Assembly: GCF_003663945.1 (NCBI RefSeq)
Contig: NZ_RCCH01000001.1
Coordinates: 62,001 to 126,000, forward strand
Reading direction: 5' to 3'
Source: Lacinutrix venerupis
GTDB lineage: Bacteria > Bacteroidota > Bacteroidia > Flavobacteriales > Flavobacteriaceae
DNA length: 64,000 nucleotides
Position numbers and translations under genes: made by a program. The notes under the pieces were generated by a model that did not search any database, was not told where the DNA came from, and was given only the letters and a program-made list of their open reading frames with translations. How positions within the stretch are numbered: position 1 is the first letter of the stretch; every line of letters begins with the position of its first letter. Below, in pieces: positions 29,228 through 49,103 of the stretch.

Positions 29228-29300
29228 AGCTTTAGAGTACGCTATAAATTTTTTTAGCTCTATTAAAATTACTATTTTGTTCGTGCTATTACAATTACGT

Positions 29301-30071
29301 ATGAAATATCATGATATAAAAGAGATTTATAAATCCATTTTTAAATCTTACAGTAAACCATCTTTAGAAACTCACATTAAAAAAATAATAGAACTCGATA
29401 AATTTCTTCCTTACAGTTCTACTTATTTCTGCATTACAAACACTCAAGAATTAAAGTTTGAATATATAAGCAAAAATTTTAATGCCTGTTTAGGTTTTGA
29501 TGCAGAAGATTTAAAAGCTAAGGGCATGAAATATTTTTGGAGTTTAATACACCCAGAAGATATAGAAGTATGGTTAGCTGCATTAAACCATTTAATGGAG
29601 TTTACACTTTCTGAAATTTCTGAAAATGACAGAGCTAGTTCTAATTACACTTGGAATTATAGATTAAAAAACGCACAAGGCAATTATGTAAATATTATAC
29701 AAAATACAACGCCTTTAGCATTTGATGCTAGTATGAAGCCAATTATTGGTTTAGCACATTACACTGTTTTGTCCGATAATATTAAAATGCCAGTTACTGC
29801 AACAGCAAAACTTTTAAATAAACAAAACGAATACGAAACCATATATTATAATAACTTTTCACAAAAATTATTACAATCTGGAATAAGTAATAGAGAACGC
29901 GATGTTATAAGATTATTAGTTTTAAATTACTCAAGTAAAGAAATTTCAAACCTACTAAATATTAGTTCGCATACCGTAGATACACATAGACGTAATATTT
30001 TGAAAAAACTTAAAATATCTTCAACAGGAGAGTTAATAGGAATGCTAAAATTAAATAAAACTTTAATTTAA
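29301..30071 (+). CDS. PAS-like sensor domain fused to LuxR-type HTH regulator
   Basis: A 256-residue one-component regulator. The ATG at 29301 (MKYHDIKEIYKS) was chosen over a TTG 8 codons earlier. The middle (about 45-170) looks like a PAS domain: FCITNTQELKFEYISKNFNACLGFDAEDL, FWSLIHPEDIEVW and YRLKNAQGNYVNIIQNT...AHYTVL. The C-terminus (about 192-253) is a GerE/LuxR HTH: SNRERDVIRLLVLNYSSKEI and HTVDTHRRNILKKL. It has no receiver domain, so it is not a classical two-component response regulator. Soluble, cytoplasmic. Targets unknown. A strong terminator follows at 30155. Confidence 0.88.
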   Translation: MKYHDIKEIYKSIFKSYSKPSLETHIKKIIELDKFLPYSSTYFCITNTQELKFEYISKNFNACLGFDAEDLKAKGMKYFWSLIHPEDIEVWLAALNHLMEFTLSEISENDRASSNYTWNYRLKNAQGNYVNIIQNTTPLAFDASMKPIIGLAHYTVLSDNIKMPVTATAKLLNKQNEYETIYYNNFSQKLLQSGISNRERDVIRLLVLNYSSKEISNLLNISSHTVDTHRRNILKKLKISSTGELIGMLKLNKTLI

Positions 30072-45712: not shown

Positions 45713-46075
45713 ATGCCTAAACCAAAAGGAATGATTACAGCTGTAAAAGCTAAAGAATTAAACGATAATTGGACAAATTTAAGAGCCGATGCCAATGAAA
45801 CTGCTGCAGGTAAACCAGACAACCGCTCATCATGGTATTCACTAGAAGATATGGAAAATTTTCTAAAGCAAATTAAAGAAGATAACTCTAATGTAAATGG
45901 AGTACGTTTTTATTTAGGAGTTGAAACAACAGAAGAAGATAAAAAAGGTTTAACAACAATTTTTATGGTTCCAACCAAAGATGATGGTAAAGGTAATAAC
46001 CAAGATATACCAGAAGCAGATGGTATGGATAGAGGTGCAGTAGGTGTACCTCCTAATCAGGGATATCCAAATTAA
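45713..46075 (+). CDS. RSSW-domain protein, cytoplasmic copy (module 1, gene A)
   Basis: A soluble 120-residue protein without signal peptide or TM helix; I do not recognise a named family. It has a conserved core DNRSSWYSLEDMENFL (36-51), the strand motif RFYLG (65-69) and TTIFMVPT (81-88), then a Gly/Pro/Asn-rich tail ending GYPN. The same core and order occur in the gene at 46928-47434. It lies 80 nt after comM and 6 nt before a multi-TM gene, and this pair is repeated immediately downstream. A sensor or small-molecule-binding role is inferred only from the histidine kinase further on. Confidence 0.8.
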   Translation: MPKPKGMITAVKAKELNDNWTNLRADANETAAGKPDNRSSWYSLEDMENFLKQIKEDNSNVNGVRFYLGVETTEEDKKGLTTIFMVPTKDDGKGNNQDIPEADGMDRGAVGVPPNQGYPN

Positions 46076-46081
46076 ACAGAT

Positions 46082-46789
46082 TTGGATTTTTTTTTAATAA
46101 ATAACTATATTCTTATAATAAAACTACTTATTATAGCAGCAGTAATTGCTGGGATTTTATCTTATAAAAAATTTAAAAACACTCCAGTTACTTTCTTTAT
46201 TAAAATTTTAATTGGTTTATTAATTATAGAGTATGTTGGCAGTTATCCATTATATTATAATACATTTAATTTTTTAAAGCCAATTTACAATTCAATATTT
46301 AGAAAAAATTATTGGTGGTTTACTATTGCATACGATATAGTTGTTATTATTTTATTTTCAATTTTTTATCAAAAAATACTAGTTAGTCTAAAATTTAAAA
46401 GAATTTTAAAGTATGCTACGTGGGTGTTTGCAGTTGTTTCTTTTTGTTATGCAGCTTTAAATTTAGAGGCTTTATTTAACCAATTATTACCTGTTGTTCA
46501 AATTTTTGGAGCACTTATAATATTGCTTTGTTGTATTCTATATTTTTTAGAGTTGTTATTAAATAATCGTATAATATATTTTTTTAAATCTATATATTTT
46601 TACATTACCATCGGTATATTTTTGTGGTGGATAATAATTACTCCTTTAGTTTTTTTCGATTTGTATTTTAATAATTCAGATTGGAATTTTATATTCTTGC
46701 AATGGCAAATTTATTTGTTTGTAAACTTTCTTATGTATACACTTTTTATAATAGGTTTTATAGTCTCGGAACCAGAAAAAATTACTTAA
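46082..46789 (+). CDS. Roughly seven-helix membrane protein (module 1, gene B)
   Basis: A 235-residue integral membrane protein with about seven TM helices; soluble loops are short. TTG start (46082), 6 nt after gene A's stop; no ATG is usable. It has a KNYWWF motif before the third helix and ends YFYITIGIFLWWIIITPLVF, DLYFNNSDW, LQWQIYLF, GFIVS. The same motifs occur in the gene at 47442. The shape recalls uncharacterised 7TM proteins often found beside histidine kinases in Bacteroidota, from memory. It probably acts as membrane receptor or partner of gene A; this is inferred. Confidence 0.8.
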   Translation: MDFFLINNYILIIKLLIIAAVIAGILSYKKFKNTPVTFFIKILIGLLIIEYVGSYPLYYNTFNFLKPIYNSIFRKNYWWFTIAYDIVVIILFSIFYQKILVSLKFKRILKYATWVFAVVSFCYAALNLEALFNQLLPVVQIFGALIILLCCILYFLELLLNNRIIYFFKSIYFYITIGIFLWWIIITPLVFFDLYFNNSDWNFIFLQWQIYLFVNFLMYTLFIIGFIVSEPEKIT

Positions 46790-46927
46790 TCATTTTTTTT
46801 TGTTACTTTTAGTGCGCTATTAACTTATAAAACTAAATTCATCATGTAATCTTGTATTTATTCTTAACAATACAAATTAAAAATTAGTAAAATTCTTTTG
46901 CTAAATCTAACCTTAAAAAAACTAAAA

Positions 46928-47434
46928 ATGAAAAACTTATTTACCTTAGTATTAGGCTTAATTATTGGAGCATTAATAATGTATTTTTTTTGCTGTAAAA
47001 CAGAAAATTTAGGTGCAGTTGAAATAACAAAACCTAGAGGAGTAATAACACCATCAGAAGCCGCTATTTTAGACGAACAATACAACTCTAGACATACGCT
47101 TATTAGCGATTCAATAGTAGATCGTTCAGATAATCGCTCATCTTGGTGGTCTTTAGAAGATATAAGAAACTATTTAGATTATGCCGAAAACCAAAGTAGA
47201 GAATTAGGTTACACTATGGATGGTTTACGTGTATATTTAGGTGCTTATAAAACCGAAAATGGAGTAGTAGGTTACACAACTATGTTTATGGTGCCAACAT
47301 CTAGTGAAATTGAGCAGGATTCTATAAAAGGAGGTTCGGCAAGAAGAGCTGGTAACGGTGGAGATATCCCAGGTGGAGATCCTTTAAATATGGGACAGAA
47401 TGGTACACCTCCAGGAGGAAACTATCCTCAGTAA
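46928..47434 (+). CDS. RSSW-domain protein, membrane-anchored copy (module 2, gene A')
   Basis: A 168-residue paralogue of the protein at 45713. ATG at 46928 opens a TM/signal-anchor (MKNLFTLVLGLIIGALIMYFF), in place of the soluble N-terminus of copy 1; a frame start 10 codons upstream is rejected. The core follows: KPRGVITPSEA, DNRSSWWSLED (68-78), RVYLG (101-105), TTMFMVPT (117-124), and a Gly/Pro/Asn-rich tail ending NYPQ. FCC after the helix does not form a lipobox. It is 7 nt before gene B'. A periplasmic domain anchored in the inner membrane is predicted; function unknown. Confidence 0.82.
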   Translation: MKNLFTLVLGLIIGALIMYFFCCKTENLGAVEITKPRGVITPSEAAILDEQYNSRHTLISDSIVDRSDNRSSWWSLEDIRNYLDYAENQSRELGYTMDGLRVYLGAYKTENGVVGYTTMFMVPTSSEIEQDSIKGGSARRAGNGGDIPGGDPLNMGQNGTPPGGNYPQ

Positions 47435-47441
47435 AACTTAG

Positions 47442-48170
47442 ATGGAATCATTTATTCAAAATAATTTTGGTAATATTACAAAAGGAGTAGAAATTATAGC
47501 AGCTGTTACAGGTATTTTTTGTTATAAAAAATATAAAGGTACAGCTGCAATATTTTTTATTTATTTTTTACTATATGCAGTATTTGTTGAAAATTTTGGC
47601 AATTATACAAAGCTAATTAATAATAATTTTTTTCATTCATTTTTAAATAGTTTAAAAAATACTGTATTTGTAAAAAATTATTGGTGGTATCAAATTTTTT
47701 GGATTATAGGAGCTCCAATTTTTTTTTCATTTTATTTTTTTAAAATTTCAAACAGTTTAACTATTAAAAAATATATAAAAATACTCACTTTTCTTTTTAT
47801 TATATTTTCTTTCTTTTTATTAATTTTTAATTGGAATTCTCTTAAATACGGATTTATTAAAATAATAGATTTACTTAGTTTAGCTTTAATACTATTTTTA
47901 GTTTTTAGTTATTATTTTGAACTTTTAAAATCTAACCAGATACTATATTTTTATAGATCAATTAGTTTTTATATAAGTATTGGTGTTTTATTATTTTGGT
48001 TAATAATAACGCCTATGACATTTTATGAGATTTATTTTTATGATGCTGATTGGGAGTTTATAGTTTTAAAATGGCAAATATATCTATTTGCAATAGTGTT
48101 TATGTATACCACATTTACTTTAGGTTTAATAGTCTCTAAAACAAAGCAATATAAATCAATTAAAAAATAA
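47442..48170 (+). CDS. Roughly seven-helix membrane protein (module 2, gene B')
   Basis: A 242-residue paralogue of the protein at 46082, same length and topology (about seven TMs). Shared motifs: KNYWWY, SFYISIGVLLFWLIITPMTF, EIYFYDADWEF, LKWQIYLFA, LGLIVS. ATG start 7 nt after the A' stop. The histidine kinase gene begins 93 nt downstream in the same direction. The pair A'-B' repeats the pair A-B in order, spacing and protein type, which shows a duplicated two-gene unit rather than chance neighbours. Function unknown. Confidence 0.82.
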   Translation: MESFIQNNFGNITKGVEIIAAVTGIFCYKKYKGTAAIFFIYFLLYAVFVENFGNYTKLINNNFFHSFLNSLKNTVFVKNYWWYQIFWIIGAPIFFSFYFFKISNSLTIKKYIKILTFLFIIFSFFLLIFNWNSLKYGFIKIIDLLSLALILFLVFSYYFELLKSNQILYFYRSISFYISIGVLLFWLIITPMTFYEIYFYDADWEFIVLKWQIYLFAIVFMYTTFTLGLIVSKTKQYKSIKK

Positions 48171-48263
48171 ATAAATTTTTACTAGAACTATTAAAATAAA
48201 TACTTAAGCACAAATTTTTGCTAATATTTAATTTACCAAGAGAATATAAAATAAAACCTAAAA

Positions 48264-49103
48264 ATGAGTAATCAACTATTTGTTTATATAATATTTCAAG
48301 AGCTAAAAAAAACTACAGCGGCAGAACGTTATTTGCTAATTTACATGATTGGTGTTTTAGTTATAGTTACCTCATTAATAATATTATTTTTTATAATATT
48401 TCAAAAAAGAAAAAATAAATTATTATTAGATAAAATTAAACAACAACAAGCTTTTGATGCAGAACTTTCCAATGCACAAACAGAAATACAAGAACAAACT
48501 CTAAAAAACATAGGTTGGGAGCTACACGATAACGTAGGACAAATGTTAGCAGCAGCAAGTATGCAAATGAACATTTTAAAAACCATGATTGGAGATGATA
48601 TAAAGGAAAACTTTTCTGAGGCTGCAAGTACCGTTAAAGAGAGTTTAAAAGAAGTAAGAATGTTATCTCGAAGTTTAAATAACGAAGTGATTTTAAATAT
48701 TGGTTTCGAGCAATCTATTGAAAATGAATTAAATAGATTAAAGAAAATGAAATTTTCCACAGCAAAACTACTTGTAAAAGGAGAAATAATTCCATTCGAA
48801 AATAAAAAGCACGAAATAATAGTATTTAGAATTCTTCAAGAATTTTTTTCGAACACCGTAAAATATTCAGAAGCTAAAAATCTAATTGTTAAATTAGACT
48901 ACTCAAACAATTACCTTAATATTATTGCTAGCGACGATGGTAAAGGTTTCGATATGGATTCGGTAAAAAAAGGTTCAGGATTATTAAACATGAAAAGCCG
49001 TGCAGAATTAATTAATACCACTTACAATTTAACTTCTAAAGTTGGTGAAGGCACAAAACTAGAATTAAAATATCCTTTTAATAATAAAACTGAATTCTCT
49101 TAA
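48264..49103 (+). CDS. Histidine kinase (HisKA_3/NarX type) without sensor domain
   Basis: A 279-residue kinase. One TM helix (about 23-45) is followed by a coiled linker (about 50-80). The DHp domain is of the NarX/DegS type: phospho-acceptor His in GWELHDNVGQM (His88). The CA domain has N box ILQEFFSNTVKYSEA (about 191-205), G1 DDGKGF (224-229) and G2 GSGLLNM. No periplasmic or PAS sensor domain is present, so another protein should supply the signal. The two 7TM genes just upstream are the obvious candidates. No response regulator adjoins; NarL-type partners elsewhere are expected. The locus is A-B-A'-B'-kinase. Confidence 0.93.
   Translation: MSNQLFVYIIFQELKKTTAAERYLLIYMIGVLVIVTSLIILFFIIFQKRKNKLLLDKIKQQQAFDAELSNAQTEIQEQTLKNIGWELHDNVGQMLAAASMQMNILKTMIGDDIKENFSEAASTVKESLKEVRMLSRSLNNEVILNIGFEQSIENELNRLKKMKFSTAKLLVKGEIIPFENKKHEIIVFRILQEFFSNTVKYSEAKNLIVKLDYSNNYLNIIASDDGKGFDMDSVKKGSGLLNMKSRAELINTTYNLTSKVGEGTKLELKYPFNNKTEFS

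Follow-up and report, generated by a model that had tools for sequence, protein, structure and literature searches.

Conserved two-gene modules upstream of a HisKA_3 histidine kinase lacking a sensor domain in Lacinutrix venerupis and other Flavobacteriaceae

Results

Organization of the locus

Five co-oriented genes, designated A, B, A′, B′ and the kinase gene, were called between positions 45713 and 49103 of the window, by which is meant the whole 64,000-nucleotide stretch of Lacinutrix venerupis DNA that was analysed. The features are as follows:

45713..46075, forward strand: gene A, 120 aa, ATG start; soluble form of the A family, without signal or membrane anchor, carrying a DNRSSW motif and a conserved C-terminal GxPPxxxYP(N/Q) tail
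46082..46789, forward strand: gene B, 235 aa, TTG start; seven-helix membrane protein, first copy
46928..47434, forward strand: gene A′, 168 aa, ATG start; member of the A family with an N-terminal membrane anchor
47442..48170, forward strand: gene B′, 242 aa; seven-helix membrane protein, second copy, N-out/C-in by charge bias
48264..49103, forward strand: kinase gene, 279 aa; HisKA_3 and HATPase_c domains, one membrane helix, catalytic residues kept, without a sensor domain or an adjacent response regulator

An in-frame stop lies 9 nt upstream of the ATG of A, and for A′ an alternative in-frame TTG start is possible at 46898. The duplicated A-B and A′-B′ layout followed by a kinase, as set out in an earlier note on this DNA, was reproduced in its coordinates, gene order and spacings (6 nt between A and B, 7 nt between A′ and B′, 93 nt between B′ and the kinase). 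The absence of a response regulator beside the kinase was likewise confirmed, the next gene beyond it being of the nitronate-monooxygenase type. A Bacteroidetes-type promoter pattern found no match at the A-B-A′-B′-kinase locus. Elsewhere in the window, positions 29277-30071 encode a protein whose DNA-binding end is of the GerE (LuxR) type, whose front is PAS-like as judged by eye and which has no receiver domain; its gene adjoins those of a CPBP-type membrane protease, an Lrp-type regulator and a PLP enzyme, a trio that lies directly 5′ of A-B-kinase in many relatives.

The A and B families

A and A′ share 36% identity over 135 columns (E 2e-26) and B and B′ 41% over 236 columns (E 2e-48). 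Searches of all four against Pfam and NCBIfam matched no family, and a comparison of Pfam with the members of the A and B alignments gave no consistent family match; weak matches of single members to unrelated Pfam families were taken as chance since they were inconsistent across the alignment. Both families are undescribed, in that neither database holds any named match; the earlier note had raised the possibility of an undescribed signalling system. The A-B module family is defined here by adjacent profile matches to A and B with A upstream of B, an arrangement that is present in the window.

The seven or so transmembrane segments expected of B were confirmed by a confident AlphaFold2 model with seven membrane helices (pLDDT 92.4, pTM 0.89), and charge bias gives an N-out/C-in orientation for 68/68 sequences. 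The solved structures nearest to this model were GPCRs and rhodopsins (Foldseek best E 0.3; VIA-align Z 11-12.5, rmsd 4.7, 227 aligned, against a background of ~13 for helical bundles); such a Z is usual for any helical bundle, and neither a resemblance beyond the general arrangement of the helices nor a retinal site is claimed. A sequence search of the PDB found no relative of B. In the A protein the anchor is followed by a small domain made up of two helices and one beta hairpin; neither a known fold nor a solved relative was found for it.

Anchored, lipoprotein and soluble forms all occur within the A family, many A proteins being lipoproteins, and one soluble and one anchored form were seen together in 8 of the 13 loci that carry two or more A genes; both assignments follow simple hydrophobicity and lipobox rules and are approximate. 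The window itself has a soluble A and an anchored A′, the expected cellular placement of which differs. With soluble and anchored or lipidated forms of one domain, a single simple ligand-binding role for A is hard to reconcile.

Tandem copies per locus range from one to five for B and from one to three for A. A recent tandem duplication was considered as the origin of the two modules in the window and rejected, as B and B′ sit in separate supported groups of the B tree, the former beside those of L042, L050 and L037, which belong to other genera, and the latter with another set; the duplication is therefore older than the genus.

Domains and class of the kinase

Matches above the curated Pfam cut-offs were obtained for HisKA_3 (6e-11; 43.1 bits against 24) and HATPase_c (3e-8; 34.4 bits against 26.4), and beyond these and a single hydrophobic segment nothing else was detected, which confirms a kinase with one transmembrane helix and no sensor domain. 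Residues H88, N197, G226, G228 and G239 are invariant, and the H, N and G boxes are invariant or nearly so among related kinases that lack a linked regulator. With both domains above their cut-offs and the phospho-His and N/G boxes present, the protein is a member of the HisKA_3 (NarL-partner) histidine kinases. It had been termed NarX-type, but the best NCBIfam model was UhpB (8e-25; 87.5 bits against a cut-off of 408), ahead of LiaS (4e-20; 72 against 450) and NarX (5e-11; 42 against 578), with NarQ at 56 bits against 553. All of these scores fall far under the cut-offs, and the kinase was rejected as an equivalog of any of the four.

Linkage and co-occurrence across the Flavobacteriaceae

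In profile searches of 199 Flavobacteriaceae genomes A and B were each detected in 123, and the two sets of genomes are identical (Fisher p about 6e-57, uncorrected for phylogeny). The kinase subfamily was present in 99 of the 199, and all but one of these also carried A/B (98/99), the exception being a fragmented assembly. B lies directly 5′ of at least 113 of the 128 kinase copies. All 40 sampled loci, one per genome, contain A or an A-like gene, at least one B and the kinase, arranged as just listed or with interleaved copies of A and B; the A-like gene of one locus (L069) was recognised by clustering. In a further set, made up of 80 loci of named genomes, B directly precedes the kinase in 80/80 and A is present in 76/80, the kinase start in the other four lying <1.4 kb from the edge of the stored stretch. 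The called frames at the B-kinase junction overlap or are at most 10 nt apart in 50/58 cases, and a gap as wide as the 93 nt seen in the window is unusual. Among loci L037-L076 three or more kinds of gene neighbourhood precede the module (comM; Lrp/CPBP; NRAMP-type and pxpA-type genes), and the downstream neighbours are mostly constant (RluA-type and panB-type genes) and are absent from the window.

A-B and the kinase form a conserved operon, and the link to the kinase proposed in the earlier note, that A-B modules stand consistently beside a HisKA_3 kinase, is well supported. That note had also named two patterns that would speak for an accident of position, and one of these, a kinase that usually adjoins other genes, is contradicted by the linkage described above. 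Co-evolution specific to individual A-B pairs was not seen, in that the A-based and B-based pairings agreed for 9/21 locus pairs and the partial correlation vanishes inside the regulator-less clade. One genome (G034) has A-B on contig C2 and the kinase on contig C3, possibly a natural unlinked pair.

The other pattern, A-B modules that are widespread without a kinase, was found in part. The kinase subfamily is missing from 25 of the 123 A/B genomes, and among 14 loci inspected from such genomes, 12 (L180-L190, L192) have A-B between rho and rpsT/proS with no adjoining kinase, A being a lipoprotein at most of them, whilst in the other two, from two genomes (L175, L191), a LytS-type kinase (His_kinase PF06580) and a LytTR regulator come after A-B. 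The task of the kinase-free, rho-linked modules may need no kinase, or a distant one may be used. At some of the rho-linked loci a gene for a large secreted lipoprotein (~690 aa) lies beside B. In a sample of 395 genomes from across the phylum B was found in 44, of which 21 belong to other families. The partial occurrence without the kinase thus points to a portable A-B and not to an accidental linkage, and the pairing with two classes of kinase or with none suggests that A-B stays constant while the kinase can be exchanged.

The missing response regulator

A NarL regulator gene lies directly 3′ of the kinase in 69 of the 128 copies but never among the 50 that most resemble the kinase of the window. 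The description of the kinase as an orphan therefore holds for this clade only, as the operon of related clades is A-B-kinase-NarL regulator. By gene adjacency the window kinase is not part of a complete two-component system, no response regulator gene being present beside it or beside any member of its clade on a maximum-likelihood tree built from 71 kinases. The presence of the regulator requires one change on this tree (support 100/99), all regulator-less kinases falling in one strongly supported group. The regulator was probably lost once in the window's clade, the choice of loss over gain depending on a midpoint root placed among regulator-bearing kinases.

Regulators of the linked type are absent altogether from the genomes of 50/59 regulator-less kinases. 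The earlier note had suggested looking for a NarL-type regulator elsewhere in the genome; NarL regulators were present, among them one that follows a retropepsin-type gene on contig C8, but a regulator of the linked type was not found in the window's genome, the best match (40% identity) belonging to a second operon described below. Another is an orphan NarL regulator (L120:5662-6288, contig C7) between dnaG-, nadE- and gldB-type genes, its counterpart beside nadE/gldB being present in 150/199 genomes of the family. This orphan and the regulator of the second operon are candidate partners of the kinase. As a module-specific partner the nadE/gldB regulator was rejected: it occurs in 56/58 genomes whose kinase lacks a linked regulator, yet 37/75 genomes without A, B or kinase have it as well, and its co-occurrence does not, therefore, single it out. 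The regulator of the second operon was rejected as an obligate partner, since no match at 1e-25 was obtained in G091, a genome of the same genus, and it is thus not universal.

The second operon (contig C3, locus L122) has the order A″-B″-kinase-regulator, as in the related A-B-kinase-regulator operons. As single sequences A″ and B″ have diverged too far to be clearly detected, but a comparison of alignment with alignment related B″ relatives to B relatives (91.6% probability, P 8e-7) and A″ relatives to A relatives (87.6%, P 3.5e-6), which suggests that the operon plan is older than the window's clade. This operon (L122:5093-8336) is divergent from one or two phage tail collar genes (PF07484, tested in L122), which were also seen by eye at L160, L161, L168 and L170 in several genera and are a possible target of the second operon.

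Discussion

We regard it as probable that A-B-kinase is a multi-component signalling operon in which A-B supply the sensing of the kinase in trans, and in which the loss of the regulator on a single occasion has left the kinase to act on an unlinked one. Under this proposal B, with seven helices and its N-terminus outside, would together with A provide the sensing part that the kinase itself is without. The A-B complex would sense a change within or outside the inner membrane and pass the signal on via contacts of B with the single membrane helix of the kinase, its input setting the balance of kinase and phosphatase activity. The ancestral operon would have been A-B-kinase-NarL regulator and, following the loss of the regulator gene in the window's clade, the kinase, catalytically intact by its conserved residues, would now pass phosphate to a regulator encoded elsewhere. 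Control in trans, the contact between B and the kinase, its direction and the signal are suggested by gene order, co-occurrence, topology and the analogues named below; the role of A and the partner regulator we likewise infer.

The system belongs to a known class, that of two-component systems with accessory membrane proteins. In UhpC-UhpB-UhpA, UhpC is a 12-helix transporter-like receptor which acts in trans on a HisKA_3 kinase, UhpB, that has a large membrane part of its own. A multi-helix partner in trans is common to both systems and the window kinase has UhpB as its best NCBIfam match (8e-25); here, however, the kinase has one helix and B has seven. In sensory rhodopsin-transducer pairs a separate seven-helix, N-out protein signals to the membrane helix of its partner. 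B shares with these and other heptahelical receptors its seven helices, its external N-terminus and the presumed role of a distinct protein that acts on the membrane helix of its partner, but no sequence relation to them was found and the structural Z lies within the range of helical bundles.

The closest parallel in its list of parts is SaePQ-SaeRS of Staphylococcus aureus (PMC5083920), where a small lipoprotein or anchored protein, a multi-helix membrane protein, a kinase with a minimal outer part and a regulator share one operon. SaeQ, however, has four helices and B seven, and the gene order is P-Q-R-S as opposed to A-B-kinase-regulator; here, moreover, a HisKA_3 kinase goes with a NarL regulator that is absent in the window's clade, A-B is amplified and A is partly soluble. 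For A and B of the window Pfam and NCBIfam gave no family match. LiaFSR of Bacillus subtilis (PMC7191749) has in common with the present system a sensor-less, HisKA_3-type kinase (LiaS model 4e-20, below its cut-off), an accessory membrane protein and a NarL regulator, but two accessory proteins are found here in place of LiaF, neither of which matches any Pfam or NCBIfam family (a result that bears on LiaF only if these libraries hold a LiaF model). The best reading is that A-B would act as a trans-acting receptor or modulator of a sensor-less kinase in the manner of SaePQ-SaeRS, LiaFSR and UhpC-UhpB, with no sequence-family match. A search of the open-access literature, with most subscription journals outside its scope, found no paper describing an A-B-kinase system.

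The main rival to sensing by A-B, which we think rather unlikely, is a kinase that itself senses the state of the membrane via its short outer segment and single helix, A-B serving only to tune it, e.g., as a feedback inhibitor or phosphatase activator. The sae system, with the same list of parts, lends weight to such an arrangement: in a complex with SaeS, SaePQ induce the phosphatase activity of that kinase whilst being dispensable for activation (PMC5083920), and LiaF is an inhibitor of LiaRS (PMC7191749). A tuning role fits less well with the distribution of the genes, in that 25 of 123 A/B genomes are without the kinase as opposed to 1 of 99 kinase genomes without A/B, or with the pairing of A-B with a LytS-type kinase, which makes A-B look like the constant part.

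We give much less credence to A-B as a non-sensory complex that serves the envelope or transport and whose genes merely share a transcript with the kinase, which would control them or be controlled by what they make. The kinase-free modules at the rho-proS locus and the many lipoproteins among the A proteins could be explained in this way; two classes of kinase directly after A-B, in the same order, often overlapping and in many genera, argue against it. That the whole arrangement is an accident of position is exceedingly improbable: although upstream neighbours vary (comM, a CPBP protease, pxpA-type genes), B is linked to the kinase at every one of the 80 named and 40 sampled loci, in dozens of genera and whatever the upstream context, and this explanation was rejected.

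Returning to the preferred reading, of sensing by A-B in trans, a bolder form may be put forward tentatively, namely that A-B is a free-standing seven-helix receptor with a small modulator, able to plug in trans into HisKA_3 or LytS kinases much as a serpentine receptor works with different effectors, and that in a large clade of the Flavobacteriaceae it drives a kinase whose own regulator gave way to an unlinked one. Two unnamed families, found together in most of the Flavobacteriaceae sampled (123/199), are tied to a kinase that has no sensor of its own, which offers a concrete instance, open to experiment, of a kinase that draws its input from membrane proteins distinct from itself. A whole clade has kept this kinase with intact catalytic residues after the loss of the linked regulator and, as this loss appears as a single change on the tree, a comparison of sister genera that have or lack the regulator would put the rewiring of a two-component system to a direct test.
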